Made by a program: the position numbers and the translations under genes. DNA of 64,000 nt from Parvibaculum sp. (lineage in GTDB: Bacteria; Pseudomonadota; Alphaproteobacteria; Parvibaculales; Parvibaculaceae). The notes under the pieces were generated by a model. The model ran no database searches. It was not told the DNA's origin and was given only the letters and a program-made list of their open reading frames with translations. Location of the stretch: positions 186,001 to 250,000 of the forward strand of contig NZ_JAUSBV010000008.1 in the NCBI RefSeq assembly GCF_030651915.1. The letters are read 5' to 3'. Of this stretch, positions 7,172-24,664 are shown in pieces (the stretch's first letter is position 1; every line of letters begins with the position of its first letter).

Positions 7172-7187
7172 TGCGAGACGCGTTCCG
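7172..7187 (-). promoter_or_regulatory. Probable sigma-54 promoter of fliL operon
   Basis: Reads CGGAACGCGTCTCGCA on the minus strand: GG and GC separated by exactly 10 bases, with the ACG that follows GG in the consensus TGGCACG-N4-TTGCA. Predicted start near 7161, about 100 bases before the fliL ATG. It is weaker than the other four sites (C before GG, TCGC rather than TTGC), but the palindrome pair sits at -84 and -98, the same geometry as at flgE and flagellin 1. Confidence 0.55.
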
Positions 7188-7238
7188 GCGCCTTGTTTGA
7201 AGCGACCCGTAAGGATTATGACGCTGGAGAGACCAAGC

Positions 7239-7265
7239 GGCAGAAACTGCCCGGTAGTCCCTGCC
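7239..7265. promoter_or_regulatory. Paired GGCAG-N3-CTGCC palindromes, putative FlbD enhancer
   Basis: GGCAGAAACTGCC at 7239-7251 is a perfect palindrome with a 3-base centre. GGTAGTCCCTGCC at 7253-7265 matches with one change. Centres are 14 bp apart. Similar pairs occur upstream of flgI, flagellin 1 and flgE, so this is probably the binding site of an NtrC-family activator such as FlbD, whose Caulobacter sites contain a CGGCA core. The protein itself is not in the window. Confidence 0.65.
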
Positions 7266-7327
7266 GCCGAACATTCCGCCGGCCCATCAAAATTTCTTAT
7301 CCCATTGTTTTTATTGATATTTTACTG

Positions 7328-7343
7328 TGGCATGAGCCCTGCA
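7328..7343 (+). promoter_or_regulatory. Sigma-54 promoter of flgF-flgG-flgA-flgH
   Basis: TGGCATGAGCCCTGCA has GG-N10-GC spacing and closely fits TGGCAYG-N4-TTGCA. Predicted start near 7354, about 50 bases before flgF. Palindrome centres lie at about -95 and -109. Confidence 0.8.
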
Positions 7344-7404
7344 CATCCGTCGACGGGACGCCAGCATCAGCGCCCGTCAACTGAACCGGACGACCGACGC
7401 CAGT

Positions 7405-8136
7405 ATGGAAAACGCACTTCTCATAGGTCTTTCACGCCAGATGGCGATGACGCGCGAAATGGCGACCATCGCAAACAATCTGGCGAACATGAACACGGCC
7501 GGCTTCAAGTCGGAATCGATGCTGTTCGACCAGTTCGTGATGAAGGGCGCCTCGGAAAGCAACGGCCCGTCCAAAATCACTTTCGTCCAGGACTTTGGCC
7601 AGCATCGCGATCTGCGCGACGGCACGCTGCAAATGACAGCGAACCCGTTCGATGTTGCGATCACGGGCGAAGGCTACTTCAGGGTCCAGACCGAAACCGA
7701 TGTGCTCTATACGCGCAACGGTCACTTTCGCCTCGACGAAGCCGGCCAGCTCGTGACGGCGAACGGAGACCCCGTGCTGACCGACGCCGACGCACCGATC
7801 CTTTTCGCGCAGGACGAAACCGGCATCACCATCGCACGCGACGGCACGGTCTCGTCAAGTCTCGGCCTGCGCGGAAAGCTTTCCGTCGTGACATTCGAAA
7901 ATCCGCAGAACATGCAGATGGCAGGCGGCACCCTCCTGAGGACGCTGCAGGACGAACAACCGGTCGACGAGCCGCGCCTCATGCAGGGTGCGATCGAAGG
8001 GTCCAACGTGCAGCCAATTATCGAAATGACAAACATGATCGAAGTGACGCGGTCTTACGCAAGCGCGCAGAAGCTCATCGATCAATCGGACCAGATGCGC
8101 CGCAAGGCCATTCAGGAACTCGGAAGCCCGGCCTGA
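7405..8136 (+). CDS. flgF: Flagellar proximal rod protein FlgF
   Basis: FlgF is a proximal rod subunit of the basal body, exported by the flagellar secretion system. The 243-residue product has the N-terminal rod/hook signature MATIANNLANMNTAGFKSE and the C-terminal flagellar domain ending MIEVTRSYASAQKLIDQSDQ. Length is usual. The ATG lies about 50 bases from the predicted sigma-54 start point. It heads the operon flgF-flgG-flgA-flgH and is followed by flgG after 41 bp. Confidence 0.96.
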   Translation: MENALLIGLSRQMAMTREMATIANNLANMNTAGFKSESMLFDQFVMKGASESNGPSKITFVQDFGQHRDLRDGTLQMTANPFDVAITGEGYFRVQTETDVLYTRNGHFRLDEAGQLVTANGDPVLTDADAPILFAQDETGITIARDGTVSSSLGLRGKLSVVTFENPQNMQMAGGTLLRTLQDEQPVDEPRLMQGAIEGSNVQPIIEMTNMIEVTRSYASAQKLIDQSDQMRRKAIQELGSPA

Positions 8137-8177
8137 AGCCGGCCTTCGATATGACACAAGGGTAAGGAACAAGCTCC

Positions 8178-8963
8178 ATGCAGTCGCTCAGCATCGCCGC
8201 CACCGGCATGATGGCCCAGCAGCTCAATGTCGAGGTGATATCCAACAACATAGCCAACATGAGCACGACTGGGTTCAAGCGTCAGCGCGCGGAGTTCCAG
8301 GACCTGCTCTACCAGAACCTGCGCCGCGTCGGCACCAACTCGTCGGATGCAGGCACCATCGTGCCCGCAGGCGTGCAGATCGGCCTCGGCGTCAAGACGA
8401 GCTCGGTCTATCGTGTGATGACACAGGGCAACATGGACATCACCGAAAACAAGCTCGACATGGCCATTCAGGGACGCGGCTACTTTCGCGTCGAGCTGCC
8501 GAGCGGCGAGGACGCCTACACCCGCGCCGGTTCCTTCCAGGTCAGCGGCGATGGCCAGATTGTGACATCGGACGGCTACACACTGGCACCGGGCATCTCG
8601 ATCCCGGCTGAAGCAACCGACATCACCATCAGCCGTGACGGTCAGGTTCAAGTCATGATCCCGGGCCAGACCGCTTCCCAGGTCGTTGGCCAGATCGAAC
8701 TGGCAAATTTCGCCAACGAGGCGGGTCTCGACCCGCAGGGCGACAATCTCTTCCTCGAAACGACGGCCAGCGGCGCACCCTTGATTGGCACGCCCAACAA
8801 TGCGGGTTTCGGCGGCGTTCTTCAGGGCTTCCTCGAAACCTCGAACGTGAACGCGGTTGGCGAAATCACCTCGCTCATAACGGCTCAGCGGGCCTACGAA
8901 ATGAACGCCAAGGTCATCACCGCCTCCGACGAGATGATGTCCGTCGCCACGAACGTCAAATAA
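8178..8963 (+). CDS. flgG: Flagellar distal rod protein FlgG
   Basis: FlgG forms the distal rod crossing the periplasm. The 261-residue product is full length, with the N-terminal motif VISNNIANMSTTGFKRQRAE and the C-terminal motif SLITAQRAYEMNAKVITASDEM. The start ATG has AAGGAACA about 6 bases upstream. It is a paralogue of the preceding flgF and is followed without a gap by flgA. Confidence 0.98.
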   Translation: MQSLSIAATGMMAQQLNVEVISNNIANMSTTGFKRQRAEFQDLLYQNLRRVGTNSSDAGTIVPAGVQIGLGVKTSSVYRVMTQGNMDITENKLDMAIQGRGYFRVELPSGEDAYTRAGSFQVSGDGQIVTSDGYTLAPGISIPAEATDITISRDGQVQVMIPGQTASQVVGQIELANFANEAGLDPQGDNLFLETTASGAPLIGTPNNAGFGGVLQGFLETSNVNAVGEITSLITAQRAYEMNAKVITASDEMMSVATNVK

Positions 8964-8975
8964 TTGGTGAATCAT

Positions 8976-9965
8976 ATGTACGCGCATAACGTCTTTTTGA
9001 TTGTAACACTCGCCTCAGCAGTGTTTTTCGCGGCGCCTGTCGCTGCCGCCGAATTGCGCCCGACGGTGACCGTCGCTGGCGAAACGGTGACGCTGGGCGA
9101 CCTCTTCGACGATGCCGGATCCGCGGCCCATGTCGTCGTCGCAAACGCACCGGCACCCGGCCTTACGGGCGAGGTTTCCGTGTCACGCATTTCGCTCGCG
9201 GCGCGTCGCAACGGCATCGCATGGCGCAACAATGCCGGCCTGACACATGTCGTCATCGGTCGCAGCGGCCTGCCTGTCCCCGAGAGCGAAGTTGCCGCGG
9301 CAATCGCCGGCGCCATCGAAACGCAATCCTCGTCCCTTCCCTCGGCAGCAACCCTTCAGGTCGACTTTGCCAACGGCGTCGCCGGAATCCAGGTCGCCGA
9401 AGACGCCGAACGCAGCGTTCGCGTCGAACAACTCTCTTTCAATCCACGCAGTGGCGCATTCACCGCAGTCATTCGTGCACCGGCCGACGACATGATGAGC
9501 CCGTTGCGCCGTGTGACCGGTCGCGCCTATCCCGTTATCGATGTGCCGGTGTTAACCCGTGACATCATGCCGGGCGATGTCGTCCGCCGGAACGACATCG
9601 ACTGGATTCGTCTGCCATCGACGCGCGTCAGCCAGAACATCGCAACATCGCTGCCCCAGCTTGTCGGCATGTCGCCGCGCAATCCGGCACGCGCCGGCGA
9701 ACCGCTTCGCATTTCCGACATGCGCCCGCCGCTGGTCGTCGAGAAGGGCGCACAGGTCGATATGACTTTCGTTTCCGGTTCCCTGACATTGACGGCGCGT
9801 GGACGTGCGCTGGACAGCGGCGCAATCGGCGATGTGGTGAATGTGCTGAACAGCCGCTCCAACCGCACCGTACAGGGCATCATCGAAGGTCCGAACATGG
9901 TCCGCATCGATGCGCCTGGCTCAGCACGTGCAGCGGCGCTCAATGCCGCTGGCGGCAACTCGTGA
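8976..9965 (+). CDS. flgA: P-ring assembly chaperone FlgA
   Basis: FlgA is a periplasmic chaperone for FlgI during P-ring assembly. A signal peptide (VFLIVTLASAVFFAAPVAAAE) is followed by an N-terminal SAF-like region and the conserved C-terminal part with DVPVLTRDIMPGDVVRRNDI and VEKGAQVDMTFVSGSLTLTARGRAL. An in-frame TTG directly after the flgG stop (8964) could add four residues; I prefer the ATG at 8976 because the signal peptide follows it directly. Neither start has a strong ribosome site, so coupling to flgG is likely. About 329 residues. Confidence 0.93.
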   Translation: MYAHNVFLIVTLASAVFFAAPVAAAELRPTVTVAGETVTLGDLFDDAGSAAHVVVANAPAPGLTGEVSVSRISLAARRNGIAWRNNAGLTHVVIGRSGLPVPESEVAAAIAGAIETQSSSLPSAATLQVDFANGVAGIQVAEDAERSVRVEQLSFNPRSGAFTAVIRAPADDMMSPLRRVTGRAYPVIDVPVLTRDIMPGDVVRRNDIDWIRLPSTRVSQNIATSLPQLVGMSPRNPARAGEPLRISDMRPPLVVEKGAQVDMTFVSGSLTLTARGRALDSGAIGDVVNVLNSRSNRTVQGIIEGPNMVRIDAPGSARAAALNAAGGNS

Positions 9966-10741
9966 TCGAAATACCGGAAGCCCCGATCAAAAAGGCCATG
10001 AAAATGTTTGTCAGTTCTCCTTGCCGCCTTGTCGCCGTCGTCCTGATCGCCGCCACGCTTGCCGGCTGCAGCAGCGCCGACCGTATCGCCAACATCGGCA
10101 AGGCACCGGATATGGCGCCGGTTGGCACCATCGAGCCGCGCGTTTCGATGCCGATGCCTGCGCCCGAAGAGATCGTCTATCAGCCGAACTCGCTCTGGCG
10201 CTCAGGTTCACGCGCCTTCTTCCGCGACCAGCGCGCCGCACGCGTCGGCGACATCCTCACAGTTCTGATCAACATTACCGACAGCGCCAAAGTCGATAAT
10301 TCGACCAAGCGCAACCGCGCCGGCTCGGAAGACGCCGCCATCAACAATTTGCTCGGCTATGAAAGCTATCTCGGCAAGGTCTTTCCGGGAGCCGTCGACA
10401 ACGCCAATCTCGCCCGTCTCGGCACCAGTAGCTCAAGCACCGGCGCCGGCTCGGTCGACCGCAAGGAAAAGATCGATCTCACGGTCGCGGCGGTCGTGAC
10501 CCAGGTCCTGCCGAATGGTAACCTCGTCATCTCCGGTCGCCAGCAGGTCCGCGTCAATTTCGAAGTGCGCGAACTCGATGTCACCGGCATCGTCCGGCCC
10601 GAGGACATTTCGAATATCAACACGATCCAGCACACCCAGATCGCCGAAGCGCGCATCGCCTATGGCGGTCAGGGCCAGATCTCCGATATGCAACAGCCCC
10701 GCTACGGTCAGCAGCTCTTCGACATTCTGATGCCGTTCTGA
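9962..10741 (+). CDS. flgH: Flagellar L-ring lipoprotein FlgH
   Basis: FlgH forms the L-ring in the outer membrane. The N-terminus is a lipoprotein signal ending LAGC (Cys36 from the GTG start). Conserved parts include NSLWRSGSRAFFRDQRA, VGDILTVLINI, and a C-terminal VSGxQ-like strand set ending QPRYGQQLFDILMPF. The GTG at 9962 overlaps the flgA stop (GTGA); ATGs at 9998 and 10004 would shorten the leader and also fit. It is the last gene of the operon, followed by a strong terminator. Confidence 0.95.
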   Translation: MIEIPEAPIKKAMKMFVSSPCRLVAVVLIAATLAGCSSADRIANIGKAPDMAPVGTIEPRVSMPMPAPEEIVYQPNSLWRSGSRAFFRDQRAARVGDILTVLINITDSAKVDNSTKRNRAGSEDAAINNLLGYESYLGKVFPGAVDNANLARLGTSSSSTGAGSVDRKEKIDLTVAAVVTQVLPNGNLVISGRQQVRVNFEVRELDVTGIVRPEDISNINTIQHTQIAEARIAYGGQGQISDMQQPRYGQQLFDILMPF

Positions 10742-10770
10742 CCACCCGACTGACGGCTTACCCAAAAGAA

Positions 10771-10799
10771 AAACGCGGCTCGCAAGAGCCGCGTTTTTT
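10771..10799. terminator. Bidirectional terminator flgH / dksA
   Basis: An 11-bp stem (10771-10781 with 10786-10796) around the loop GCAA, with A-tract before and T-tract after, so it works on both strands. It separates the convergent flgH and dksA genes. Confidence 0.9.
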
Positions 10800-10822
10800 C
10801 ATCCGTCCAGATCAACTGGCGC

Positions 10823-11239
10823 TCAGTCGTCGCGATAGACCTTCTCGCGGCGTTCGTGGCGCTCCTGTGCTTCGATGGAAAGTGTCGCGATCGGTCGCGC
10901 ATCGAGCCGCTTCAGACTGATCGGCTCGCCGGTTTCTTCGCAATAGCCATACGTACCTTCATCGATCCGCCTCAACGCGGCGTCGATCTTGGCGACGAGC
11001 TTGCGCTGTCGGTCGCGGGTACGGAGCTCAAGGGATCGTTCGGTTTCGGAGGAGGCGCGGTCGGCGATATCGGGATGCTGCACATTATCGTCTTGCAGAT
11101 GCTGCAGCGTCTCGCGATTCTCCTGGAGGATGTCGTCTTTCCAGTTTTCGAGCTTGCGGCGGAAATACTCCTTCTGCCGCTTATTCATAAACGGCTCATC
11201 GTCTGTCGGCATATAGCCCTTGGGTAAACGAACAGCCAT
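10823..11239 (-). CDS. dksA: RNA polymerase-binding protein DksA
   Basis: DksA binds the RNA polymerase secondary channel and mediates ppGpp responses. I place the start at the ATG at 11239 (MAVRLPKGYMPTDDEPFMN), the usual alphaproteobacterial N-terminus; upstream codons to 11332 look like leader. The 138-residue product has the coiled coil and the C-terminal region YGYCEETGEPISLKRLDARP. Only one Cys of the classical four-Cys zinc finger remains, as in other alphaproteobacterial DksA proteins. It is monocistronic and convergent with flgH. Confidence 0.93.
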   Translation of the reverse strand: MAVRLPKGYMPTDDEPFMNKRQKEYFRRKLENWKDDILQENRETLQHLQDDNVQHPDIADRASSETERSLELRTRDRQRKLVAKIDAALRRIDEGTYGYCEETGEPISLKRLDARPIATLSIEAQERHERREKVYRDD

Positions 11240-11392
11240 TCGCGACAATCTTCCTCCAGCCCGAGCCCCTGCGGAAACGGGCCGGACTATAGCGACCGGC
11301 CCCACGATTCTCAACAGCGATGGACCGGCCAAACCGGTGAAATATATGTGAAATCCGGGATGGTTCCGGCGCGGGCCGAAAGCAAGGAAAAT

Positions 11393-11827
11393 CTAGATTT
11401 TAGTATAGGTCCCGAACTTGGCCAGCTCGACCCGCGCCCGGAGTTCGATCTGGTCGAGAATCTCGCGCAAAGCCGGATCGGCAATCCCGCCAAGCTGCCG
11501 TTCGACGACGGAAAGCAGGCGCGAAAGCTTCGATTTCGGCACCTGGCCCATCAACAGCGCCAACTTGATCTCGTCGAGAATATCGAGCATTTCCTCGGCC
11601 CGGGCGACGGCCTTGCGGCGTGGCGCGTGGAGCGCATCATCAGCTGCCCCGGTTTCCTGAAGCGCCAGCAGGGCATCGACAGCGCCGAGCGAGGCCGGCC
11701 CGGACAAACCGGCGGCCCCGCGTGTGGCGCCTGCGCCGGCGGGAGCAAAGCCGCTGCCGGCGCTGCGGACGGCCGTGCCGCGCGCCCCGCCGCCCTGCGA
11801 TGTTGCTCTGGTATTGCCAATCTTCAT
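11393..11827 (-). CDS. fliX: Flagellar assembly regulator FliX
   Basis: In Caulobacter FliX links basal-body assembly to the activity of the sigma-54 activator FlbD. The 144-residue product starts MKIGNTRATSQ, has a Gly/Ala/Pro-rich variable region, then the conserved part SLGAVDALLALQE, the basic segment RRKAVARAEEMLDILDEIK, and a C-terminus LDQIELRARVELAKF. The frame stays open to 12112 but upstream codons are not FliX-like, so I start at 11827. It faces flgI across a shared region with a CtrA box on its own side. Confidence 0.93.
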   Translation of the reverse strand: MKIGNTRATSQGGGARGTAVRSAGSGFAPAGAGATRGAAGLSGPASLGAVDALLALQETGAADDALHAPRRKAVARAEEMLDILDEIKLALLMGQVPKSKLSRLLSVVERQLGGIADPALREILDQIELRARVELAKFGTYTKI

Positions 11828-11895
11828 GGCGCTGCCCCACCCCGATCCGAAACAGTCGTGCCCAGTTTCAGTTGCTCCAAAATGAACGGGAGGTC

Positions 11896-11910
11896 TTAAG
11901 GCGGCGTTAA
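11896..11910. promoter_or_regulatory. CtrA box upstream of fliX
   Basis: TTAAGGCGGCGTTAA is an exact TTAA-N7-TTAA match to the CtrA consensus, with a further TTAAC a few bases to the right. It lies about 70-83 bp upstream of the fliX ATG. In Caulobacter fliX is a CtrA-controlled early flagellar gene. Confidence 0.7.
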
Positions 11911-11937
11911 ACTTAACAATGGATCGGGTCATCCGGC

Positions 11938-11970
11938 GGCAGGAATTGCCGCCCCGCGGCAGGAGATGCC
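11938..11970. promoter_or_regulatory. Paired palindromes upstream of flgI, putative FlbD enhancer
   Basis: GGCAGGAATTGCC (11938-11950) and GGCAGGAGATGCC (11958-11970), 20 bp apart, resemble the GGCAG-N3-CTGCC element. Centres are at about -138 and -118 from the predicted flgI start point, slightly farther than at the other promoters. Confidence 0.55.
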
Positions 11971-12055
11971 CGAGCGCCACGGCAATGCGCATGGATCTCT
12001 GCCGCAGAAAAAGAAAAACCCGATAGAAATCAACAGCTTGATCCAACGCGCCGGA

Positions 12056-12071
12056 TGGCATGTCTTTCGCT
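12056..12071 (+). promoter_or_regulatory. Sigma-54 promoter of flgI operon
   Basis: TGGCATGTCTTTCGCT has GG-N10-GC spacing and the TGGCAYG half intact. Predicted start near 12082. It overlaps the most upstream ATG of the flgI frame (12060), which therefore cannot be the used start from this promoter. Confidence 0.7.
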
Positions 12072-12110
12072 AGAAGAACGCCGTATCGCAAGCGAATGAT
12101 CGGTTGTTCC

Positions 12111-13250
12111 ATGTTACGGCTTTTTGCCCATCATCTCCGTTCTTTCCTGACGCTCGTACTCGCTGCCTCCCTTCTGACCGCCACCATGCCGGTCGGGGCC
12201 GGGGCCAGTTCGCGCATCAAGGACATCGTCGATGTCGAGGGCATCCGCGACAACATGCTGGTCGGCTACGGCCTTGTCGTCGGCCTCAACGGCACCGGCG
12301 ACACGTTGCGCAATGCGCCCTTCACCCAGCAAAGCCTGATCGGCATGCTGGAACGTCTCGGTGTCAACACGCGTGGCACGGCGCTGAAAACCGCCAACGT
12401 CGCCGCTGTCATGGTCTCGGCCAACCTGCCGGCCTTTGCCGCCCAGGGCACCCGTATCGACGTGACGGTCAGCGCACTCGGCGATGCGACCAACCTGCAA
12501 GGCGGCGTCCTGCTGGTGACGCCGCTGATGGGCGCCGACGGCCAGGTCTATGCCGTCGCGCAGGGATCGGTCGCCACCGGCGGCTTCGCGGCCAAGGGTG
12601 AAGGCGCCTCCGTCGTGCGCGGCGTGCCCACCAATGGCCGCATCGCCAACGGCGCCATCGTCGAACGCGAAATCGAATTTCAGCTGGCCGAACTGCGCTC
12701 GCTGCGCCTGTCGTTGCGCAATCCCGACCTGACAACCGCGCTGCGCGTCGCCACGGCCATCAACACCTATCTCGGCATCAATACCGCAACCGCCGATAAT
12801 CCGACCACCGTGCAGCTCACCGTTCCCGGAAGCTATCGCGGCGGCGTCGTCGGCCTTCTCACCGACATCGAACAATTGCGCGTCCAGCCCGATCTCGCCG
12901 CTCGCGTCGTCATCGACGAAGCCTCGGGCGTCATCGTCATGGGTCAGGACGTCCGCGTCAGCCAGGTGGCGATTGCGCAAGGCAATCTCACGATTTCCGT
13001 CAACGAAACGCCGCAGGTCAGCCAGCCCTCGCCCTTCGCCGCGCAGGGCGACACGGTCGTGGTGCCGCGCACCACCGTCACGGTCGACGAGGAAAACGGC
13101 AAGCAGCTCGGTATTATCGAGGGCAGCGTCAGCCTCAAGGAGCTGGTCGACGGTCTCAATGCGCTGGGCGTCAGCCCGCGCGACATGATCACCATCCTGC
13201 AGGCGATCAAATCCGCCGGTGCGCTGCAGGCCGAAATCGAGGTGATGTGA
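12111..13250 (+). CDS. flgI: Flagellar P-ring protein FlgI
   Basis: FlgI builds the periplasmic P-ring around the rod. I start at the ATG at 12111, giving 379 residues and a clean signal peptide (FLTLVLAASLLTATMPVGAGA), followed by the family hallmark SRIKDIVDVEGIRDNMLVGY and GLVVGLNGTGDT. The C-terminus LKELVDGLNALGVSPRDMI is also typical. ATGs at 12096 and 12060 are in frame, but 12060 lies inside the predicted promoter. flgJ follows with a 1-base stop/start overlap. Confidence 0.95.
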   Translation: MLRLFAHHLRSFLTLVLAASLLTATMPVGAGASSRIKDIVDVEGIRDNMLVGYGLVVGLNGTGDTLRNAPFTQQSLIGMLERLGVNTRGTALKTANVAAVMVSANLPAFAAQGTRIDVTVSALGDATNLQGGVLLVTPLMGADGQVYAVAQGSVATGGFAAKGEGASVVRGVPTNGRIANGAIVEREIEFQLAELRSLRLSLRNPDLTTALRVATAINTYLGINTATADNPTTVQLTVPGSYRGGVVGLLTDIEQLRVQPDLAARVVIDEASGVIVMGQDVRVSQVAIAQGNLTISVNETPQVSQPSPFAAQGDTVVVPRTTVTVDEENGKQLGIIEGSVSLKELVDGLNALGVSPRDMITILQAIKSAGALQAEIEVM

Positions 13251-13564
13251 TGGACCTGGCCGCCCTTCCCGCCCCTCTGCCCGCGATACCCGGCAAGCCG
13301 GCGCCGAATCCGGCCGCCCAGGGCCGCGACGCGCGCGCCTGGGAAACCGCGCGCGACTTCGAAGCCCAGTTCGTTTCGGTCCTGCTGCAACCGATGTTCG
13401 AGGGCACGGGCGAGGACAGCGCTTTCGGCGGCGGCCCCGGCGAAGGCATGTTCCGCTCGCTGCTGGTCGAACAATATGGCCGGGAAATGGTCAAGAGCGG
13501 TGGCATCGGCCTCGCCGACAGCGTCTATCGTGAAATGCTGAAAATGCAGGAACAGCCCCGATGA
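13250..13564 (+). CDS. flgJ: Rod-binding protein, FlgJ N-terminal type
   Basis: The FlgJ N-terminal domain is the rod cap or scaffold. This 104-residue product contains the conserved ARDFEAQFVSVLLQPMFEG, GEGMFRSLLVEQYGREM and GIGLADSVYREML segments, and lacks the C-terminal glucosaminidase domain, as is common in alphaproteobacteria. The wall hydrolase must be elsewhere. The ATG overlaps the flgI stop (TGATG); a GTG one codon earlier is also possible. It overlaps the next gene by 4 bp. Confidence 0.88.
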   Translation: MDLAALPAPLPAIPGKPAPNPAAQGRDARAWETARDFEAQFVSVLLQPMFEGTGEDSAFGGGPGEGMFRSLLVEQYGREMVKSGGIGLADSVYREMLKMQEQPR

Positions 13565-14040
13565 GTGCGCCCGCCCGCCGCATCGCCGCCGAAAACCTGG
13601 CGCCCGCCGATCTGGTCGAGCGCATGCTCGAGCAGACGCTCGCCCTGACCGGGATTGTCCGCCGCGAAACCGGCTTTCTGCGTGATCGGGCGCGCTCCGA
13701 GGTCGCCGCGCTGCAACCTGAAAAAATTCGTATCGCCAACGACTATGCGATGGACGCCCAGGCGATTCACGGCCGCAAGGATCTGATCGACCGCGCCCCG
13801 TCCGAACGCGTCTCGAGGCTGAAAGCGGCCATGATCGAACTCGATCGCTCGCTGGCCGAGAACGGCGAGGCGCTGGTAGCCGCCCGCTCGGTCTCCGAAG
13901 GACTGATTCGCATGGTCGCCAATGCGATGAGCGAACAGGCCGCGCCGACGCTCGGCTATGGCCGCGACGCCGCCCCGGCCGCCCGGCGCGCCGGAAGTGC
14001 GGCCACGCCAGGCTCATTGACCCTCGACGCCCGGTTTTAG
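13561..14040 (+). CDS. FlgN-like flagellar export chaperone
   Basis: A 159-residue mostly helical protein. The FlgN-like core has AADLVERMLEQTLALTGIVRRE, a central long helix, and the VSEGLIRMVANAMSEQ segment typical of FlgN-like proteins beside flgJ in alphaproteobacteria, where they chaperone hook-associated FlgK and FlgL. A Gly/Ala/Arg-rich tail may be disordered. Its ATG overlaps the flgJ stop by 4 bp (ATGA). The assignment rests on helical pattern and location more than on strong identity. Confidence 0.7.
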   Translation: MSAPARRIAAENLAPADLVERMLEQTLALTGIVRRETGFLRDRARSEVAALQPEKIRIANDYAMDAQAIHGRKDLIDRAPSERVSRLKAAMIELDRSLAENGEALVAARSVSEGLIRMVANAMSEQAAPTLGYGRDAAPAARRAGSAATPGSLTLDARF

Positions 14041-14058
14041 GCGACTTCGTGGCCGCCG

Positions 14059-14073
14059 TTAACTCGGTGGTAA
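14059..14073. promoter_or_regulatory. Near-match CtrA box before the TPR glycosyltransferase
   Basis: TTAACTCGGTGGTAA is TTAA-N7-GTAA, seven of eight consensus positions, about 65-80 bp before the start of the glycosyltransferase gene. It could drive that gene independently of the flgI operon. Confidence 0.35.
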
Positions 14074-14138
14074 CCACGATGGGTCGCAGATAGACAATCA
14101 AACGGCCGATACGGCAGGTCACGGGAACGGCATCCGGC

Positions 14139-15764: not shown

Positions 15765-15779
15765 GAACGCCCCCTGCCC

Positions 15780-15883: not shown

Positions 15884-16098
15884 AGTAATCCGCAGATGAA
15901 ATCGCGGGTGCGGAACGGCCAATCGAATTGCCTCATGCCCCCGGTTCGACGGCGAAGAGACGGACGACCTTCAATCGGCAGATCGTCGGTCAAATCGAAA
16001 GACAGTTCGGACTGTTTACGTCGAATTAATGATTAATGCCGAGTGTAGTGCCCGTGCCGCCATGAGACGGCCGAGCCAAACCCTGGAGGGTAGAGACA

Positions 16099-17280: not shown

Positions 17281-17306
17281 CAGCCGTTCACGACAATATG
17301 CGATCG

Positions 17307-17335
17307 AAAAGGCGGGTCCCCGGACCCGCCTTTTT
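17307..17335 (+). terminator. Terminator after flagellin 1
   Basis: A 9-bp GC stem (17311-17319 with 17322-17330) followed by TTTTT, preceded by AAAA. It isolates flagellin 1 from flagellin 2. Confidence 0.88.
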
Positions 17336-17493
17336 CATTGATCGGGTTTCATGAAACGGACGGCTCGAACATTTTCGTCGAATGATTACAAAAAAAGCAA
17401 TTCGTTTTACCGGCTCTTAACGGACCCCGCTGCATGATCCCGCCATGGCTCAGAAAGAGCCGAAAAACTAGGTCCTAGGAAAGGAACTGAACT
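17336..17493 (+). promoter_or_regulatory. Leader region of flagellin 2
   Basis: This gap has no GG-N10-GC site and no GGCAG palindrome. Just before the gene lie a hairpin (GGCTC/GAGCC, 17447-17461), a short palindrome CTAGGTCCTAG (17468-17478) and the ribosome site GGAAAGG. The promoter class cannot be assigned; the hairpin next to the ribosome site suggests translational control. Confidence 0.45.
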
Positions 17494-18642
17494 ATGGGTG
17501 ATATCACCATTTCCAGCGCCGTGCGCACCAACCTGCTGACGCTGCAGAACACCGCGCAGATGATGGCGCAGACGCAGAACCGCCTCGCCACCGGCTTGAA
17601 GGTTTCGAGCGCTCTCGACAATCCGCAATCCTTCTTCACCGCCGCCGGCCTCTCGAGCCGCGCCACGGACATGAGCGCCCTGCTCGACTCGATGAGCCTT
17701 GGCGTGCAGACGCTGAAAGCCGCCGACGAAGGTATCAAGTCGATCCAGAAGCTGGTCGACCAGGCGAAGTCGGTTGCCAACCAGGCCCTCCAGGCCAAGG
17801 CGACGGCGACGACCCTCGACAAGACGGCCGAAGCGGCCGCGATTGCCGGCTCGGCCGGTGCCCGCACGGTCACCTTCCAGATCGGTACGGCCTCGGCGGT
17901 CAGCGTCGTCTTCGACACGGCGACCTATGCTTCGGCCGCTTCTTCGGCCGCGGCCATCGAAACCAAACTCGCGGGTCTCGTCTCGTCGGGCGGCACGCTG
18001 GCCGGCCTGGCGGTTTCGCGCACCGGCGGCGATCTGAGCTTCACGGTCGCCTCGGGTGAAAACCTGACGATCGCCGGCACGGCGGCGGCCACGGGTGCGG
18101 CGGGCTTCGGCATCGCCACCTCCGGCACGCAGGGCCAGAACGGCGAGACGCTGGCAGAAGCCAAATCGACCTTCGCCACGGACTACAACAACCTGCTCGC
18201 GCAGGTCGACCAGATGTCGCTCGATACGAGCTTCAACGGCATCAACCTGCTTTCCGGCGACAACCTGTCGGTGATGTTCAACGAAGGCAGCACCTCGAAG
18301 CTCGACATCGTCGGCGTGACCTTCAACGCCGCCGGCATCGGCCTGGCCTCGACGGACTTCAGCGACATCAACGCCGAAGTCACCAAGCTGAACGCGGCGA
18401 CCGCCACGCTCCGCAAACAGTCCTCGACCTTCGGTGCGAACCTCTCGGTCGTGCAGAACCGCCAGGACTTCACCAAGAACATGATCAACGTTCTTGAAGC
18501 GGGCGCCGGCAACCTGACGCTGGCCGACACCAACGTCGAAGCGGCCAACCTGCTCGCCCTGCAGACCCGCCAGTCGCTGGCCTCGACCTCGCTGTCGCTG
18601 GCCAACCAGTCGGAACAGAGCGTCCTCTCGCTGCTCCGCTAA
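17494..18642 (+). CDS. Flagellin 2
   Basis: A second filament subunit, 382 residues, close to flagellin 1 at both ends (VRTNLLTLQNTAQMMAQTQNRLATGLKVSSALDNPQ at the start, LLALQTRQSLASTSLSLANQ near the end) with a different Ala/Ser/Thr-rich centre. Tandem flagellins with different promoters usually mean filament segments of different composition. It is followed by a strong terminator. I see no sigma-54 promoter for it, unlike flagellin 1. Confidence 0.97.
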   Translation: MGDITISSAVRTNLLTLQNTAQMMAQTQNRLATGLKVSSALDNPQSFFTAAGLSSRATDMSALLDSMSLGVQTLKAADEGIKSIQKLVDQAKSVANQALQAKATATTLDKTAEAAAIAGSAGARTVTFQIGTASAVSVVFDTATYASAASSAAAIETKLAGLVSSGGTLAGLAVSRTGGDLSFTVASGENLTIAGTAAATGAAGFGIATSGTQGQNGETLAEAKSTFATDYNNLLAQVDQMSLDTSFNGINLLSGDNLSVMFNEGSTSKLDIVGVTFNAAGIGLASTDFSDINAEVTKLNAATATLRKQSSTFGANLSVVQNRQDFTKNMINVLEAGAGNLTLADTNVEAANLLALQTRQSLASTSLSLANQSEQSVLSLLR

Positions 18643-18678
18643 ACGGATCCGCCTTCGGGCGAAACCGGAGACAAAAAC

Positions 18679-18710
18679 CGGCGGGGGCCTTGGCCCCCGC
18701 CGTTCCTTTT
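18679..18710 (+). terminator. Terminator after flagellin 2
   Basis: An 11-bp GC stem (18679-18689 with 18692-18702) with loop TT and a downstream TTCCTTTT. Confidence 0.85.
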
Positions 18711-18796
18711 GAGCCGGTCCGATAGGCCTGCCAACTGCCGCAGATCTGGGCTAGACTCGGCCCGATTCAATCGGCAGATCACCGGACGGGAACGGC

Positions 18797-19189
18797 ATGG
18801 CTCTCAAAGTCGAACTGAAACCAGGCGAGCGCTTCATTCTGGGCGACAGCGTCATCACCAATGACGACCAGCGCACGCGCCTCTTCATCGAGGGCGACGC
18901 GCCGATCCTGCGCGAGAAGGACATTCTCAGGGCCGCCGACGCCGACACCCCCTGCAAGCGCGTCTACCTGCTGGTCCAGATGATGTACCTGGCGCCCGAC
19001 CCGCGCCCGCATCACGAGATGTATTTTCAGATTGTTAAGGATGTGGCCGAGGCGGCCCCCTCGACCATGCCGTATCTGGACACCATCAACAGCAAAATCT
19101 TAACCGGCGAAATGTATAAAGCTCTCAAGGAAGCTCGAAAATTGATCGAGTACGAACGGGGGTTGCTGGAGAATGTCAAAACCGCTTGA
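18797..19189 (+). CDS. flbT: Flagellin translation regulator FlbT
   Basis: FlbT binds the 5' leader of flagellin mRNA in Caulobacter and represses translation until the hook is complete. The 130-residue product has the family start LKVELKPGERFILGDSVITND and conserved LFIEGDAPILREKDI, VYLLVQMMYLAPDP and GEMYKALKEARKLIEYE segments. It overlaps flaF by 17 bp. Its position directly after two flagellin genes matches the usual alphaproteobacterial layout. Confidence 0.96.
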   Translation: MALKVELKPGERFILGDSVITNDDQRTRLFIEGDAPILREKDILRAADADTPCKRVYLLVQMMYLAPDPRPHHEMYFQIVKDVAEAAPSTMPYLDTINSKILTGEMYKALKEARKLIEYERGLLENVKTA

Positions 19190-19550
19190 GGCTTATGCCA
19201 CCGCGTCGCGGATGACGATTTCGGATCCGCGTGAATTCGAGGCCTCGATCCTGACCCGCGCCGCCGGCCAACTTCAGCGTATCCGCGACAACTGGACGGC
19301 CGAAACATCCGCAACGCTGCGCGACGCTCTTCTTTACAATCGCCGCATCTGGACCGTATTCGCCGCCTCGGCCGCCGAGCTCGAGCATCCGCTGCCGCGC
19401 GAGATCAAACAGAACATCGCCAACCTCGCCGTCTTCATCTTCAAGCGCACCGCAGAGATCGAGGCGACCCGCGAGCCCGAGCCGCAGCTCCTCGACACGC
19501 TGATCATGATCAACCGCGAAATCGCCGCCGGCCTCTACCAGAAGGGCTGA
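19173..19550 (+). CDS. flaF: Flagellin synthesis protein FlaF
   Basis: FlaF is a small flagellin-binding protein needed for flagellin production and export, antagonistic to FlbT. The 125-residue product contains PREFEASILTRAAGQLQRI, LYNRRIWTVFAASAAE and PREIKQNIANLAVFIFKRT, all typical. The start lies inside flbT, so the pair is translationally coupled. Transcription ends at a terminator shared with the convergent flgL. Confidence 0.95.
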   Translation: MSKPLEAYATASRMTISDPREFEASILTRAAGQLQRIRDNWTAETSATLRDALLYNRRIWTVFAASAAELEHPLPREIKQNIANLAVFIFKRTAEIEATREPEPQLLDTLIMINREIAAGLYQKG

Positions 19551-19661
19551 CGCGGTTCGAGCGCACGGGGCGCCCGATAGCTCCCACACGATCCATCTTC
19601 GTTCTCCACCATCTTGTTTGGACGAACATGTGGCCTCTCGCGAACAGCCGGTGCACGGACG

Positions 19662-19692
19662 AAAAACGCCCGCTTTGAAAGCGGGCCTTTTT
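19662..19692. terminator. Terminator between flaF and flgL
   Basis: An 8-bp stem GCCCGCTT/AAGCGGGC (19668-19675, 19679-19686) with AAAAA before and TTTTT after, suitable for both converging operons. Confidence 0.85.
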
Positions 19693-19709
19693 GTCTGTGC
19701 ATGGTCACC

Positions 19710-21200
19710 CTAGAGATAATTGACCAGCGACATCCGCGAAAGCATCGCGGTAACCTGATAGCTGGCCTCGAGCTGAGTCTGCAGCGTCGTCAGCTTGACG
19801 CCGACTTCGTAGGAGTCGGCGTTCTGAATATCGCCCAGGATCTCGTTGGCGGTCGCCATCATCTTGTCGTGCCGGTCCTGCGTGTTGGCCAGCGTGGCCG
19901 CCGTCAGCCCGAGCCCGGTCACGATGCTTTCGACCGAGGGCGTTCCCTCGAAATTGAGCGTTGTCCCGATACGTTGCGTCAGCGCCTTGTAGGAATGGCT
20001 TTCCTCGGGATCGGTGCCGGTATATTCGACCGCCGACATCAGCGCCGCCACCTTCAGCGTGTCGCGGATCGCCGCCTGGTCGGCCCGCGCCCCATAGGCC
20101 AGCTGCCGCCCGTCATCGATCTTGGCGATCATGTTGTTGCCCGGCACGCCGCTCTGGTCGCCGCTGTACCAGAACACCGTATCGGCTTGCGTTCCATCGC
20201 GCAGCGCTGTCGCCGTGCCGAAGGGCGGCCCGTCGACGCGTTGCGGCGCGCCGCCATTGGCATAGTCAAAGAAATTGTTGGCCGCTTCCACCGCCGAGGC
20301 GGCCCGCAGCCTGGTATTGGCTTCGGTCTGGACGGCCGTGTCGAGCGCCGCCTGGAAATTGACCGAGGTCGCCGTCGCATCGGCGCCGATCGTGAACTGT
20401 CCGGCGGCCGGCGGGTTGTCGGTCGTCGCGGTGAGCGTTACCCGTGTCGTCGTCCCGTCGGGCAAGGCGAAATCGAGCGTCAGCTTCTCGCCGGCCTGCG
20501 GCACGCCGGTGAAATCGACTTCGATTTCGGCCGGTGCGCCCGCCGGGCCATTGACCGTGACATTGGAAAGCGACGAGTCGGCGGCAGCAAGCTTGAATCC
20601 GAACACGCTGGGCGCGGCATCTTCCGACAATGTGACCGTCGTGCCCGTCAGATCGAGTTCGAGCCGTCCCCGCCCGTCGGTGCCGAGATCGGCCTGGGCC
20701 CGCTCGTCGATGAACTGCTTGAGACCGGCCTTGTCGCCCGTGCCGTTCAGCATCGCATCGGGCACCGCCACCGGCTGTGTCTGCGTATCGCGGCCACCAA
20801 AAAGATAACGGTCCTCGACCCGGAGATTGAGCAGGTTGATGATTTCGTCGAACTGCATCGCCGCCGTCACCTGGGCGCTGGTCTGCTTGCCGTTCACCAG
20901 CTCGAAACCGCTGGTGATGTTGGTCGTCTTCATGCTGCTGGCAATTTGCGCGACGCGCGTCAACGCGTCCGACGAGATCTGCACGCGCATCTGCGTCTGC
21001 GAAATCGTCTTGGTGTAGGTCTGGAGCTGGCTCAGCTGATGTGAAAGCGACAGCACCATGTTGCGGTCGGTCCCGAGCTTGGCGTAGCTGTCGGACTTGA
21101 TCCCGGTCGCAAGCTGGCGCTGCAGATCGTCGAACTGCGCCCGCATCGAGTTGATCGAACTGCGCAAGGCCAAGGACTGGGAGAGCGTTGAAATCTGCAT
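19710..21200 (-). CDS. flgL: Hook-filament junction protein FlgL
   Basis: FlgL (HAP3) joins hook and filament. The 496-residue product has a flagellin-like N-terminus (LALRSSINSMRAQFDDLQRQLATGIKSD region) and C-terminus (LTTLQTQLEASYQVTAMLSRMSLVNYL), with a long central insertion (about residues 150-290) of beta-rich repeats that makes it longer than the enterobacterial protein. It starts 5 bp after flgK and ends the operon flgE-flgK-flgL. Confidence 0.93.
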   Translation of the reverse strand: MQISTLSQSLALRSSINSMRAQFDDLQRQLATGIKSDSYAKLGTDRNMVLSLSHQLSQLQTYTKTISQTQMRVQISSDALTRVAQIASSMKTTNITSGFELVNGKQTSAQVTAAMQFDEIINLLNLRVEDRYLFGGRDTQTQPVAVPDAMLNGTGDKAGLKQFIDERAQADLGTDGRGRLELDLTGTTVTLSEDAAPSVFGFKLAAADSSLSNVTVNGPAGAPAEIEVDFTGVPQAGEKLTLDFALPDGTTTRVTLTATTDNPPAAGQFTIGADATATSVNFQAALDTAVQTEANTRLRAASAVEAANNFFDYANGGAPQRVDGPPFGTATALRDGTQADTVFWYSGDQSGVPGNNMIAKIDDGRQLAYGARADQAAIRDTLKVAALMSAVEYTGTDPEESHSYKALTQRIGTTLNFEGTPSVESIVTGLGLTAATLANTQDRHDKMMATANEILGDIQNADSYEVGVKLTTLQTQLEASYQVTAMLSRMSLVNYL

Positions 21201-21205
21201 TTGAC

Positions 21206-23056
21206 TTACCTGCCGATGCTCATAAGCACATCGAAGAGTTGTTTGACGGTGGTGATGACGCGCGCATTGGCCGAATAGGCGTTTTGCAGCAGCAGCAGAT
21301 TCGACATTTCATCGTCGATATTGACGCCCGTCTGCGCATCGAACCGGTCCTGAAGCGACGACGAGACGATCTGCTGCGCCTCCGCGTCACGCTGTGTATT
21401 GGCGGCCTGCGACGACTGGAACGACACCAGGCGTCGCGCAAAACTGTCGATCGTCCCGTTGAAGGGCGAGGACGCGCCGCCGATCCCCGATCCCGGGGAG
21501 AAGTAACGGCTCTGGCCGGTCAGACGCTCAAGAAGATCGTGCACCCGCGTCGAATCGCCCAGCGGCACATCCGTGTCATAGGCCACAAGCAGCGTGTCGT
21601 CGGCGATGATCGCCGGATTGACCTGGATGCGGCTCGCAAAGCCGGTCTTCTGGGGCGGATTGTCGAGGCTGTTGGAGAAAATCTTGCTCCCGGCGCCGTC
21701 GACGAACAGCGCCATGCCTGTCGTACCGTCGGCAAGTCCCGCCGGCGTCACCGTGGCCGAGAGCGTATTGATATCGCTGGTGGCGGCAAGGCCATCATCG
21801 AGAAAGCGAATAACTTCGCCCGACGGGTTCGACACCACCACTTCCGGCGGCAGCGCCGCCTGCAGCGCCGCAACCACGGCAGCCATCGGCTGGTTGAAAT
21901 TGATGCCGATCACCGTATCGTTGGGGTCGGCCGTCGCGGCATTGGTCAGCGGCAACGTTGACGGATCTTCCACACGAACGATTGTCACGGTATTCGGCAC
22001 GCCGCCGACCGTATAGGTCAGGGTCATCGAATTGCCGGGCAGCAGCGCGGCCGTATCGATCTCGAAACCTGATGCGGCGCCGTCCACCGCGGCATCGCCG
22101 GCCACGGTTTCCTGCGACAGGGCCAGCGCCAGTTGCGCGGCCAACTCATCGAGCTGCGCCTGCGCCTGGGTCAGCACATTGTCGCGCATCTCCAGATAAC
22201 CGCCAATGGCGCCGGAGCGGATCGCGCCCGCCGCCAGCAGATCGATGGTCGTGCTGCCGGCGGTCAGCGTGATGGTGCCGACACCGCCATTCGCGCGCGA
22301 GGACGTCGCGTCGATCTGTGTCCGTTCGTCGAAGCTCAGCGTCACGGCGGTCCGGTCGAGCAGCAACTGCCCGCCCGAGGTAAAGATCGTCACCGTTCCG
22401 TCGTCGCGATTGGTGACCCGCACATCCATCAGGCGCGACAGCTCGTTGATCGCCATGTCGCGCTTGTCTTGCAGGTCGCCCACGGATTGGCTCGAGGCCT
22501 GGCGCTGCGAAATCTGGCTGTTGACCTCGGCAATGGTCTTCAGCAGCGAATTGGCGCTCTCGACCGCCGCGGCGATGTTGCGCTCGGCTTCAAGCCGCAT
22601 GTTCTGAACGGTATGCGACATCGTGTTGAGCTGCGCCGCAAGATTGCCGGCATGGTTGAGCAGCGACTGGCGCGCCGCCGGCTGTTCCGGGCTGCCGGCC
22701 AGTTCCTGAAGCGCCGTTGCCAGCGCGCTGATCGAACCGGCAATCGAGCTGTTGGAGCTTGGCGCGCCGAACAGCGCGTCAACGCGCCCGAGCATCGAGG
22801 CTTTGACGTTGAGGTTTGCCGCGCCGGCCGACGCCACGCGCATCTGCTGTTGCAGGAATTCGTCGATCTGGCGCTGCGCCGCTTCGCGACGCACGCCGAT
22901 GCCCTCGGCCCCTGCCAGCGCATTGACCTGGTTCGGCACTTTCCGTGTGTAGCCGGGCGTGCCGACATTGGCGATATTGCGCGCGGTAACGTCGATGCCT
23001 GACTGGGCGACGTTCAATCCGCTCAATGCGGCGCCGAGTGCGGTGGAAAGGCTCAT
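21206..23056 (-). CDS. flgK: Hook-filament junction protein FlgK
   Basis: FlgK (HAP1) is the first hook-filament junction protein. The 616-residue product has the N-terminal signature GIDVTARNIANVGTPGYTRK and the C-terminal one NIDDEMSNLLLLQNAYSANA, with VKQLFDVLMSIGR at the end. The middle is a long variable region typical of the family. It lies 76 bp after flgE and 5 bp before flgL. Confidence 0.95.
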   Translation of the reverse strand: MSLSTALGAALSGLNVAQSGIDVTARNIANVGTPGYTRKVPNQVNALAGAEGIGVRREAAQRQIDEFLQQQMRVASAGAANLNVKASMLGRVDALFGAPSSNSSIAGSISALATALQELAGSPEQPAARQSLLNHAGNLAAQLNTMSHTVQNMRLEAERNIAAAVESANSLLKTIAEVNSQISQRQASSQSVGDLQDKRDMAINELSRLMDVRVTNRDDGTVTIFTSGGQLLLDRTAVTLSFDERTQIDATSSRANGGVGTITLTAGSTTIDLLAAGAIRSGAIGGYLEMRDNVLTQAQAQLDELAAQLALALSQETVAGDAAVDGAASGFEIDTAALLPGNSMTLTYTVGGVPNTVTIVRVEDPSTLPLTNAATADPNDTVIGINFNQPMAAVVAALQAALPPEVVVSNPSGEVIRFLDDGLAATSDINTLSATVTPAGLADGTTGMALFVDGAGSKIFSNSLDNPPQKTGFASRIQVNPAIIADDTLLVAYDTDVPLGDSTRVHDLLERLTGQSRYFSPGSGIGGASSPFNGTIDSFARRLVSFQSSQAANTQRDAEAQQIVSSSLQDRFDAQTGVNIDDEMSNLLLLQNAYSANARVITTVKQLFDVLMSIGR

Positions 23057-23132
23057 CTGGCAACCTGGGAACGAGGAACCGGAAACTCAGCGCCGGGCGT
23101 TCCCGCAAGGGAACCGCCCGCCGCCATGCCTG

Positions 23133-24497
23133 TTAGCGCTTCATATTCAGCGTTTCGCGAATGAGTTCATCGGCCGTCGTCACGATGCGTGTGCCGGCCG
23201 TATAGGCCTGCTGCGTCACGATCAGCTTCGAAAACTCGTCGGCGATGTCGACATTCGACGCTTCGCGCGCCGAGGCGATGATGTTGCCGCCGGCGCCCAG
23301 AATGGCCTCGCCCGATTCCTGCGTCGCGGCGAAGGCCGTGCCGTCGAGCTTCTTCAGCTTGTCCGGCGCATTGAACTTGGCCAGCGACACTTCGGCGAGA
23401 TCGATCGTCTTGCCGTTGGAGTAAGTGCCGGTGATCCGGCCATTCTCCGACACAGCGACGCTGACAAGCTCGCCCGACGGATAACCGTTCTGGTCGATCG
23501 TGTTGACCGCAACCGTGCCACCCGTGCTCTGGAACTGCGTGATGTTCGAGGAGCCGTGATTGAGTGTCACATCGCCGAGATTGATGCCATTGACGGTGAG
23601 GGCGGTAATCGTGGTCGAGTCGACAGCGGGTGCCAGTCGGCCCTGCGCATCGAACGCATAGGACTGACCGATATTGACCCATTTGTCGGCCGCGCCGACC
23701 GCGGCGTCGTCGGTCTTGTAGAACAGGTTCCACTCGTCGCCGCCGCCGGCCGCATTGTCGACCTTCGACCAGCGCAGCTGGATGTTGACCGGCGCGCCGA
23801 GCGAGTCGTAACCGGTGACCGCGCCGCCCGAAAGCGAGTTGTCGAGAAAGATGTCTTCGCCACTGGCCGGGATTGCAGAGAGATCGGCGAGTGGCGGCGT
23901 GAAGCGGCCAACCGTCAAAAGCTCGCTGTTGGCAACACCGGTATCGGCATTGACCGTCTTCGGCCAGGCCGGCAGGTTCGCCGTGTAGCTGATCGAATTG
24001 GTCGGCCGCGCCGCCAGGAAGTCGCGGTTGATCTGGATGCGGCCGGGCGTGTCGCCCACCGGATTGCCGGTCACCGGATCGATGGCGAGCCCCTGCAGCG
24101 CATAACCGGCGCCGTTCACGAGATGGCCGTATCGGTCCATCGTGAAGTCGCCACGCCGCGTGTAGTAGTTGACGTTGTCGAAGACGGGCTGGTTGTCGAC
24201 GGTCGCGATGGTCGACGAAACGATGAAGAAGCCTTCGCCATTGATCGCCATATGCGTCGGCACTTCCGAAGCGTCGATCGACCCCTGCACCGAATTGGTG
24301 AAGGAAGGCGCCGCCAGAACCGCGCCCGGCAAATGGTTGCGGCTGGAGGACGCGGTGACGATATCCTGGAAGCTCGTATCGGTGCGCTTGTAGCCGATCG
24401 TCTGCGAGTTGGCGATATTGTCCGAGATGTGACCGAGCGCGCTCGACTGGGCGCGAATGCCGGAAATGGCGGTGGACATCGATCCAAAGAAACTCAT
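23133..24497 (-). CDS. flgE: Flagellar hook protein FlgE
   Basis: FlgE is the hook subunit. The 454-residue product begins MSFFGSMSTAISGIRAQSSAL with HISDNIANSQTIGYKRTDTS and ends FSKLIVTQQAYTAGTRIVTTADELI, the terminal coiled-coil segments of hook proteins. The middle has the beta-domain expected of FlgE. It is the first gene of flgE-flgK-flgL and has the clearest sigma-54 promoter on the minus strand in the window. Confidence 0.95.
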   Translation of the reverse strand: MSFFGSMSTAISGIRAQSSALGHISDNIANSQTIGYKRTDTSFQDIVTASSSRNHLPGAVLAAPSFTNSVQGSIDASEVPTHMAINGEGFFIVSSTIATVDNQPVFDNVNYYTRRGDFTMDRYGHLVNGAGYALQGLAIDPVTGNPVGDTPGRIQINRDFLAARPTNSISYTANLPAWPKTVNADTGVANSELLTVGRFTPPLADLSAIPASGEDIFLDNSLSGGAVTGYDSLGAPVNIQLRWSKVDNAAGGGDEWNLFYKTDDAAVGAADKWVNIGQSYAFDAQGRLAPAVDSTTITALTVNGINLGDVTLNHGSSNITQFQSTGGTVAVNTIDQNGYPSGELVSVAVSENGRITGTYSNGKTIDLAEVSLAKFNAPDKLKKLDGTAFAATQESGEAILGAGGNIIASAREASNVDIADEFSKLIVTQQAYTAGTRIVTTADELIRETLNMKR

Positions 24498-24559
24498 GGC
24501 TCTTCTCCATGCGGTGGGTCCCGGCAGGGGCTCTGCGGAACACGTGCTGCCTGCATGTG

Positions 24560-24575
24560 AGCAAGGAGCGGGCCA
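24560..24575 (-). promoter_or_regulatory. Sigma-54 promoter of flgE-flgK-flgL
   Basis: TGGCCCGCTCCTTGCT on the minus strand has GG-N10-GC spacing with TTGCT. It is nearly identical to the flagellin 1 promoter. Predicted start near 24549, about 52 bases before the flgE ATG. Confidence 0.85.
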
Positions 24576-24630
24576 TCGATTTTTGTGAACAAAATCAACA
24601 TGTTACCATTCGTTAACTGTTTCGGAACTC

Positions 24631-24664
24631 TGCAGCCCCTGCCCCCTGCCCGGCAGAAATTGCC
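24631..24664. promoter_or_regulatory. Paired palindromes upstream of flgE, putative FlbD enhancer
   Basis: TGCAGCCCCTGCC (24631-24643) and GGCAGAAATTGCC (24652-24664), centres at about -88 and -109 from the predicted start. The geometry matches that of flagellin 1 to within one or two bases. Confidence 0.65.

Follow-up and report, generated by a model that had tools for sequence, protein, structure and literature searches.

Flagellar genes of classes III and IV in Caulobacter crescentus require sigma-54, integration host factor (IHF), and FlbD, and FliX couples them to assembly (excerpt of PMC3096577). At ftr4, upstream of fliF, FlbD represses fliF (excerpt of PMC3930126). Fumeaux et al., cited in an excerpt of PMC12421884, mapped FlbD sites in promoters of Caulobacter, for which a box of the regulator CtrA has also been described (excerpt of PMC4287350). 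The polar flagellar activators FlrC, FleR, and FlgR resemble FlbD in the kind of protein and in their place in the hierarchy (excerpt of PMC7064773); they pair with sensor kinases, whereas FlbD pairs with FliX. Here we analyze a 64,000-nucleotide stretch of a Parvibaculum sp. genome (the window; C10:186001-250000 in a 3.50-Mb genome of 11 contigs), in which palindromes with the core (C)GGCA-N5-TGCC(G) lie upstream of sigma-54 sites at flagellar promoters. Parvibaculum very probably has FlbD/ftr control, a system well known from Caulobacter, with its usual parts, and we put the probability that FlbD binds these palindromes (as ftr elements) and activates the sigma-54 flagellar promoters at about 0.9. 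In Parvibaculaceae, sites at early genes form a probable family-specific extension of that system. A limited literature search gave, among the matches listed, no paper naming both Parvibaculum and FlbD.

The likeness to C. crescentus extends to an FlbD equivalog, FliX, RpoN, palindromes upstream of GG-N10-GC promoters, candidate IHF-like sites at part of the promoters, and an FlbD-type (ftr4-like) site at the CtrA-driven fliF promoter. Unlike C. crescentus, Parvibaculaceae have a second palindrome upstream of the fliF CtrA box and another upstream of fliP, and G rather than A is commonest just inside the left arm of the palindrome.

Palindromes and sigma-54 sites at flagellar promoters

The initial annotation described five upstream regions (fliL, flgF, flgI, flagellin 1, and flgE), each with a GG-N10-GC site and two copies of the same 13-bp palindrome, GGCAG-N3-CTGCC. 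Because one and the same pair was assigned to both fliL and flgF, the number of independent regions is four rather than five; all four have strong palindromes, and the second flgE copy is weak. An exact match to the 13-mer occurs in only two of the eight copies. The GG-N10-GC sites are conserved at flgF, flgI, flagellin 1, and flgE, but not at fliL. The elements are as follows.

7239 to 7251, no strand: FlbD-type palindrome GGCAGAAACTGCC, common to fliL and flgF; 0 mismatches to the 13-mer, 19.4 bits (centre 7245)
7253 to 7265, no strand: second FlbD-type palindrome of fliL/flgF, GGTAGTCCCTGCC, 14 bp from the first; 1 mismatch, 14.5 bits (centre 7259)
7328 to 7342, plus strand: sigma-54 site of flgF, TGGCATGAGCCCTGC; site in 22/22 Parvibaculaceae and 17/17 other flgF regions
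11938 to 11950, no strand: FlbD-type palindrome 1 of flgI; 1 mismatch, 17.3 bits (centre 11944), seen in alignment
11958 to 11970, no strand: FlbD-type palindrome 2 of flgI, 20 bp from the first; 1 mismatch, 15.0 bits (centre 11964)
12056 to 12070, plus strand: sigma-54 site of flgI, TGGCATGTCTTTCGC, with C at -14; conserved in relatives by alignment
15780 to 15792, no strand: FlbD-type palindrome 1 of flagellin 1, GGCAATTCTTTCC; 3 mismatches, 17.2 bits (centre 15786)
15799 to 15811, no strand: FlbD-type palindrome 2 of flagellin 1, GGCAGTTCCTGCC; 0 mismatches, 15.1 bits (centre 15805)
15867 to 15881, plus strand: sigma-54 site of flagellin 1, TGGCCCGGCCCTTGC; site in 19/19 Parvibaculaceae
24561 to 24575, minus strand: sigma-54 site of flgE, TGGCCCGCTCCTTGC; TGGC-N7-YTGC in 14/15 Parvibaculaceae
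24631 to 24643, no strand: claimed second flgE palindrome, TGCAGCCCCTGCC; 1 mismatch, weak at 4.9 bits
24652 to 24664, no strand: FlbD-type palindrome of flgE; 1 mismatch, 20.8 bits (centre 24658), the best site of the window

Scores come from a matrix built from 71 sites in the flgF, flgI, and flagellin regions of other Parvibaculaceae, with the window and its near twin (locus L020) left out; since those regions served for training, palindrome counts at flgF, flgI, and flagellin promoters of Parvibaculaceae lean the matrix's way. The other families, the window, fliF, fliK, the region upstream of fliP, and flgE of the relatives lie outside the training set. Several promoter sites were labelled by the open reading frame (ORF) caller as lying inside spurious ORFs in the matrix scan, and these labels were not used.

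With this independently trained matrix, seven of the eight copies take ranks 1 to 7 in the window. The next best site, at 40226 (14.2 bits), is at no recognised flagellar promoter. Nine window sites reached at least 13 bits, compared with 1, 0, 0, 0, and 0 in five shuffles. Matches to the 13-mer with up to two mismatches numbered 106, whereas 100 shuffles gave a mean of 56 and a maximum of 79. A combined search for a sigma-54 site and a palindrome of at least 11 bits found both at flgF in 22/22 Parvibaculaceae and 17/17 others (39/39), at flgI in 24/25 and 27/36 (51/61), and at flagellin 1 in 19/19 Parvibaculaceae. Upstream of flgE, a palindrome of at least 15.9 bits is present in 15/15 Parvibaculaceae; 5 of 14 relatives have a second copy, of 10.7 to 12.4 bits, at the matching distance (60 to 62 bp), and the copy at 24631 to 24643 may well be due to chance.

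Genome-wide, a single copy of the palindrome is not specific. The literal 13-mer has 11 listed places, of which two are flagellar promoters, one is inside a CckA-like gene, and eight are without assignment, so it was ruled out as a marker. With at most one mismatch it is rarer than its backward control (309 versus 511). Forward matches to CGGCA-N5-TGCC number 84 and reverse matches 77, against 35 and 41 for the control. The bare 13-mer is thus common outside flagellar promoters, an outcome that the initial annotation had named as refuting, whereas the palindrome joined to a sigma-54 site is not: a palindrome followed after 40 to 101 bp by a sigma-54 site occurs at six places in the genome and at none in the backward control, and four of the six are upstream of flgF, flagellin 1, flgE, and fliK.

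When gapped palindromes were counted de novo, without a motif as input, GGCA-N5-TGCC came second after TTAA-N7-TTAA, the CtrA box. These two led the list for the 99 Parvibaculaceae regions as well as for the 53 regions of other families. The ranking was by enrichment over coding sequence multiplied by log count, and AT-rich palindromes without a coding match followed closely. GGCA-N5-TGCC occurred 67 times in Parvibaculaceae, in 60 of the 99 promoter regions, with 3 occurrences in 142 kb of coding sequence; the other families had 45 occurrences in 35 of the 53 regions and 5 in 138 kb of coding sequence. At loci L031 and L034, both flagellin regions correspond to one stretch of DNA that was counted twice.

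The alternative that GC-rich DNA yields many near-palindromes, from which those near genes were picked, draws on the few flagellar places among the exact 13-mers, the shortfall of the one-mismatch form against its control, and the many matches to the core. The ranking by the independent matrix, the persistence of the palindromes in alignments where adjacent bases have drifted, and the rarity of the palindrome in coding sequence of the same genes make chance extremely improbable for seven of the eight copies.

At flgI, all 51 of the picked sigma-54 sites lack the usual T at -14 (TCGC in 44, TAGC in 5, which are weak sites, and TGGC in 2), unlike flgF, where T is at this position in 39/39. The departure is a gene-specific, conserved change in the -12 element.

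FlbD as the probable binder

The genome encodes a FlbD that passes the NCBIfam FlbD equivalog NF050807 (806.8 bits; cut-off, 750). The gene lies on contig C9 within a class II cluster, fliK-flgD-...-fliF-fliG-...-fliN-flbD-flhA, whose neighbours FliK, FlgD, FliF, FliG, FliN, and FlhA were recognised by Pfam. rpoN is also present in the genome (PF04552, E = 1.3e-70). Thirty relatives were chosen from 80 loci and their FlbD sequences compared by tblastn; an ortholog was found in 29 of the 30. The aligned proteins are 59 to 99% identical, and the helix-turn-helix stretch, HCLGNRTHAANILGISIRTLRNKL, shows 0 to 2 residue differences across the 29, a range that also holds for the four loci of Caulobacter or Caulobacteraceae records among them.

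The FlbD equivalog, fliX, rpoN, the near-invariant helix, and the shared palindrome core strongly support, at the level of sequence, the proposal that an FlbD-type activator is the likely binder. The initial annotation had added that the motif may be particular to this lineage; this does not hold, as the same core stands at promoters of other families and both it and the FlbD recognition helix are nearly the same from Parvibaculum to Caulobacter.

We considered whether another sigma-54 activator, such as NtrC or NtrX, binds the palindromes while FlbD acts elsewhere. Three further full-length sigma-54 activators are present in the genome, and a dyad site is usual for such proteins. Their helix-turn-helix stretches differ from that of FlbD, however, the sites cluster at flagellar promoters, and palindrome core and FlbD helix are kept together over the range just described; binding by another activator is therefore very improbable.

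By the model that we favor, FlbD would bind about 60 to 125 bp upstream of the sigma-54 site at flgF, flgI, flagellin 1, flgE, and fliK, and looping would bring the bound protein to sigma-54 RNA polymerase; at some promoters, IHF would assist by bending the DNA that separates palindrome and sigma-54 site. FliX would signal that the early basal body has been built, whereupon FlbD would switch on transcription of the middle and late flagellar genes. For the early genes, FlbD would sit 23 to 25 bp downstream of the CtrA box at fliF and of the one upstream of fliP, at about the expected -10 region, and so turn these genes off. We infer binding, looping, the FliX signal, and repression from Caulobacter and from the position of the sites.

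Candidate IHF sites were sought with the consensus WATCAANNNNTTR. Three matches in the window lie near the promoters in question.

12028 to 12040, plus strand: IHF-like site of flgI, AATCAACAGCTTG; consensus match, also seen in alignment
15837 to 15849, minus strand: IHF-like site of flagellin 1, AATCAATGGGTTA; consensus match
24593 to 24605, plus strand: IHF-like site of flgE, AATCAACATGTTA; consensus match

Among Parvibaculaceae, matches to this consensus fall between palindrome and sigma-54 site in 12 of 20 flgI, 8 of 12 flagellin 1, and 10 of 21 flgF regions, with shuffle means of 0.03 to 0.06 regions; upstream of flgE they occur in 9 of 15. The distances from palindrome to sigma-54 site in Parvibaculaceae (18 collapsed values) favor a period of 10.7 bp (P = 0.006 versus uniform; period scanned from 9 to 12 bp). 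The other families alone gave no significant period (16 values, P = 0.089), and all 34 values together gave P = 0.002. Helical phasing is suggestive only, since the fliK values were entered by hand, the flgE relatives were left out, and palindrome pairs spaced by 20 bp contribute to the signal.

Several observations weigh against the favored model. By itself the core has many matches in the genome, and the remaining two of the six places with palindrome and sigma-54 site, both on contig C7, are near ORFs without assignment. Nine of 36 fliX|flgI regions from outside Parvibaculaceae have no site pair. The spacing within pairs varies, from 14 bp at flgF to 18 to 23 bp at flgI and flagellin 1 in Parvibaculaceae, and takes values of 14, 20, 33, 54, or 56 bp in other families; a second copy scoring 11 bits or more occurs at only 17 of 22 flgF (14 bp apart), 15 of 24 flgI, and 9 of 19 flagellin 1 promoters of Parvibaculaceae. 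IHF-like sites were found in 0 of 27 regions from other families, and none at the flgF promoter of the window. One relative, G009 (locus L035), has the palindromes and yielded no FlbD ortholog, its best match being 43% identical; this may reflect an incomplete assembly or a real loss. Finally, activation and repression are not separable from sequence.

FlbD-type sites at early genes

CtrA boxes, IHF-like sites, and sites outside the window at fliF, at fliK, and upstream of fliP were absent from the initial annotation. The early-gene elements are listed here.

7153 to 7171, minus strand: CtrA-like block upstream of fliL, plus-strand TTTGGTTAATGAAGCGTTG; core TT.GTTAA.GAAG in 22/22 Parvibaculaceae fliL|flgF regions
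11896 to 11910, no strand: CtrA box TTAA-N7-TTAA between fliX and flgI; in 25/25 Parvibaculaceae regions
Locus L107, 7129 to 7186: fliF promoter, with the CtrA box between two FlbD-type palindromes, one 21 bp upstream and the other 24 bp downstream of the box centre
Locus L018, 19427 to 19463 (C10, just upstream of the window): CtrA box upstream of fliP, with an FlbD-type palindrome 23 bp on

As at other CtrA-driven early promoters of Alphaproteobacteria, there are boxes at fliX|flgI, upstream of fliP, and at fliF, and a CtrA-like block at fliL; unlike these, two of the promoters have an FlbD-type palindrome whose distance from the box is fixed. At fliF, where the box has the form TTAA-N7-TTTA, 21/21 genomes have a palindrome scoring 9 bits or more; in the 18/18 genomes with a recognised box, two Caulobacter and one Maricaulis among them, one lies 23 to 25 bp downstream of the box. 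Of the 11 Parvibaculaceae with a box, 10 have an additional palindrome 21 bp upstream of it; none of the 7 other genomes with a box does. The 330 bp upstream of fliF contained no TGGC-N7-YTGC motif in any of the 21 genomes.

Upstream of fliP, a palindrome 23 to 24 bp downstream of a TTAA-N7-TTAA box is present in 15/15 Parvibaculaceae (our genome and 14 others); the site precedes a gene resembling fliO, which scores below the curated cut-offs. A fliP match was obtained in all but one of 30 genomes. Among other families, 12 of 15 loci have the box and none of these 12 has the palindrome, the best score 15 to 32 bp downstream of the last box being 4.3 bits.

From this position and the Caulobacter precedent, FlbD probably represses early genes at fliF and upstream of fliP. 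Alternatively, these palindromes could be co-activation sites or neutral remnants, in line with differences among the early promoters: the fliX palindrome is 41 bp from its CtrA box and on the far side, and no palindrome is seen in alignment downstream of the CtrA-like block at fliL. The fixed distance at both fliF and fliP, the lack of a sigma-54 motif near fliF, and the ftr4 precedent (excerpt of PMC3930126) make co-activation or remnants rather unlikely and argue for repression.

There are roughly even odds, in our judgment, that the FlbD switch has been widened in Parvibaculaceae. An extra CtrA-driven early unit would be shut off directly through a site gained upstream of fliP, at the 23- to 24-bp spacing that is ancestral at fliF; FlbD would stand on both sides of the fliF CtrA box; and a CtrA box with an FlbD site 23 to 25 bp on would constitute a transferable early-to-middle off-switch. 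This suggests how new operons could be brought under an assembly-coupled switch, by one site at a set distance from a CtrA box. The analysis also ties the flagellar assembly checkpoint of Caulobacter to Parvibaculaceae and supplies a usable FlbD site matrix.

The sigma-54 site claimed for fliL, near 7172, is CGGAACGCGTCTCGC (score, 15.4). Among the other 21 Parvibaculaceae fliL regions, a GG-N10-GC site at an allowed distance is absent in 9 and weaker in 10; in the remaining two, L020 and L030, a site at a different distance scores higher (16.2 and 15.5, respectively). A sigma-54 promoter at fliL was ruled out, as the claimed site is not kept among these regions; fliL looks, from its upstream sequence, to be driven by CtrA rather than by sigma-54.

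Flagellins and gene context of the window

For the second and third flagellins, the 400 bp of upstream sequence (17094 to 17493 and 21201 to 21600) contains neither GGCA-N5-TGCC nor TGGC-N7-YTGC, so another mode of control may apply to them. Downstream of the flagellin 1 sigma-54 site, a GTTTAC-N5-ATTAATGATTAA block (16014 to 16036) is largely kept in 19 aligned Parvibaculaceae; it is CtrA-like and perhaps a second flagellin 1 promoter. An inverted repeat, ACCCTGGAGGGT, at 16080 to 16091 spans the likely ribosome-binding site of flagellin 1 and occurs in some form in 15 of the 19 sequences; given the role of FlbT, it is a possible FlbT target. A conserved fold of the leader was not supported (RNAalifold, about -1.8 kcal/mol over 19 sequences), and an Rfam search of positions 7000 to 25000 gave no match.

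The genes at these promoters are the following.

7405 to 8136, plus strand: flgF, followed by flgG, flgA, and flgH; Pfam FlgE/F/G domains
11393 to 11827, minus strand: fliX, adjoining flgI; PF10768, E = 5.9e-40
12111 to 13250, plus strand: flgI; Pfam, start inferred, alignment
16099 to 17280, plus strand: flagellin 1; Pfam
23133 to 24497, minus strand: flgE (hook); Pfam

The fliX start at 11827 was inferred from the Pfam match, and an ATG is present there. For flgI, translation more likely begins at the in-frame ATG at 12111 than at 12060, the start given by the ORF finder, which falls within the sigma-54 site; the FlgI protein is 97% identical to that of a Parvibaculum metagenome-assembled genome. 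In all, the flagellar genes of the window are fliP, fliM, fliL, flgF-flgG-flgA-flgH, fliX, flgI, three flagellins, flbT, flaF, flgK, and flgE, alongside which lies dksA. A gene for a CckA-like hybrid histidine kinase, scoring 890 bits against NCBIfam CckA (below the cut-off of 1000), adjoins flhB near the flagellar cluster (L018, 13250 to 15856).

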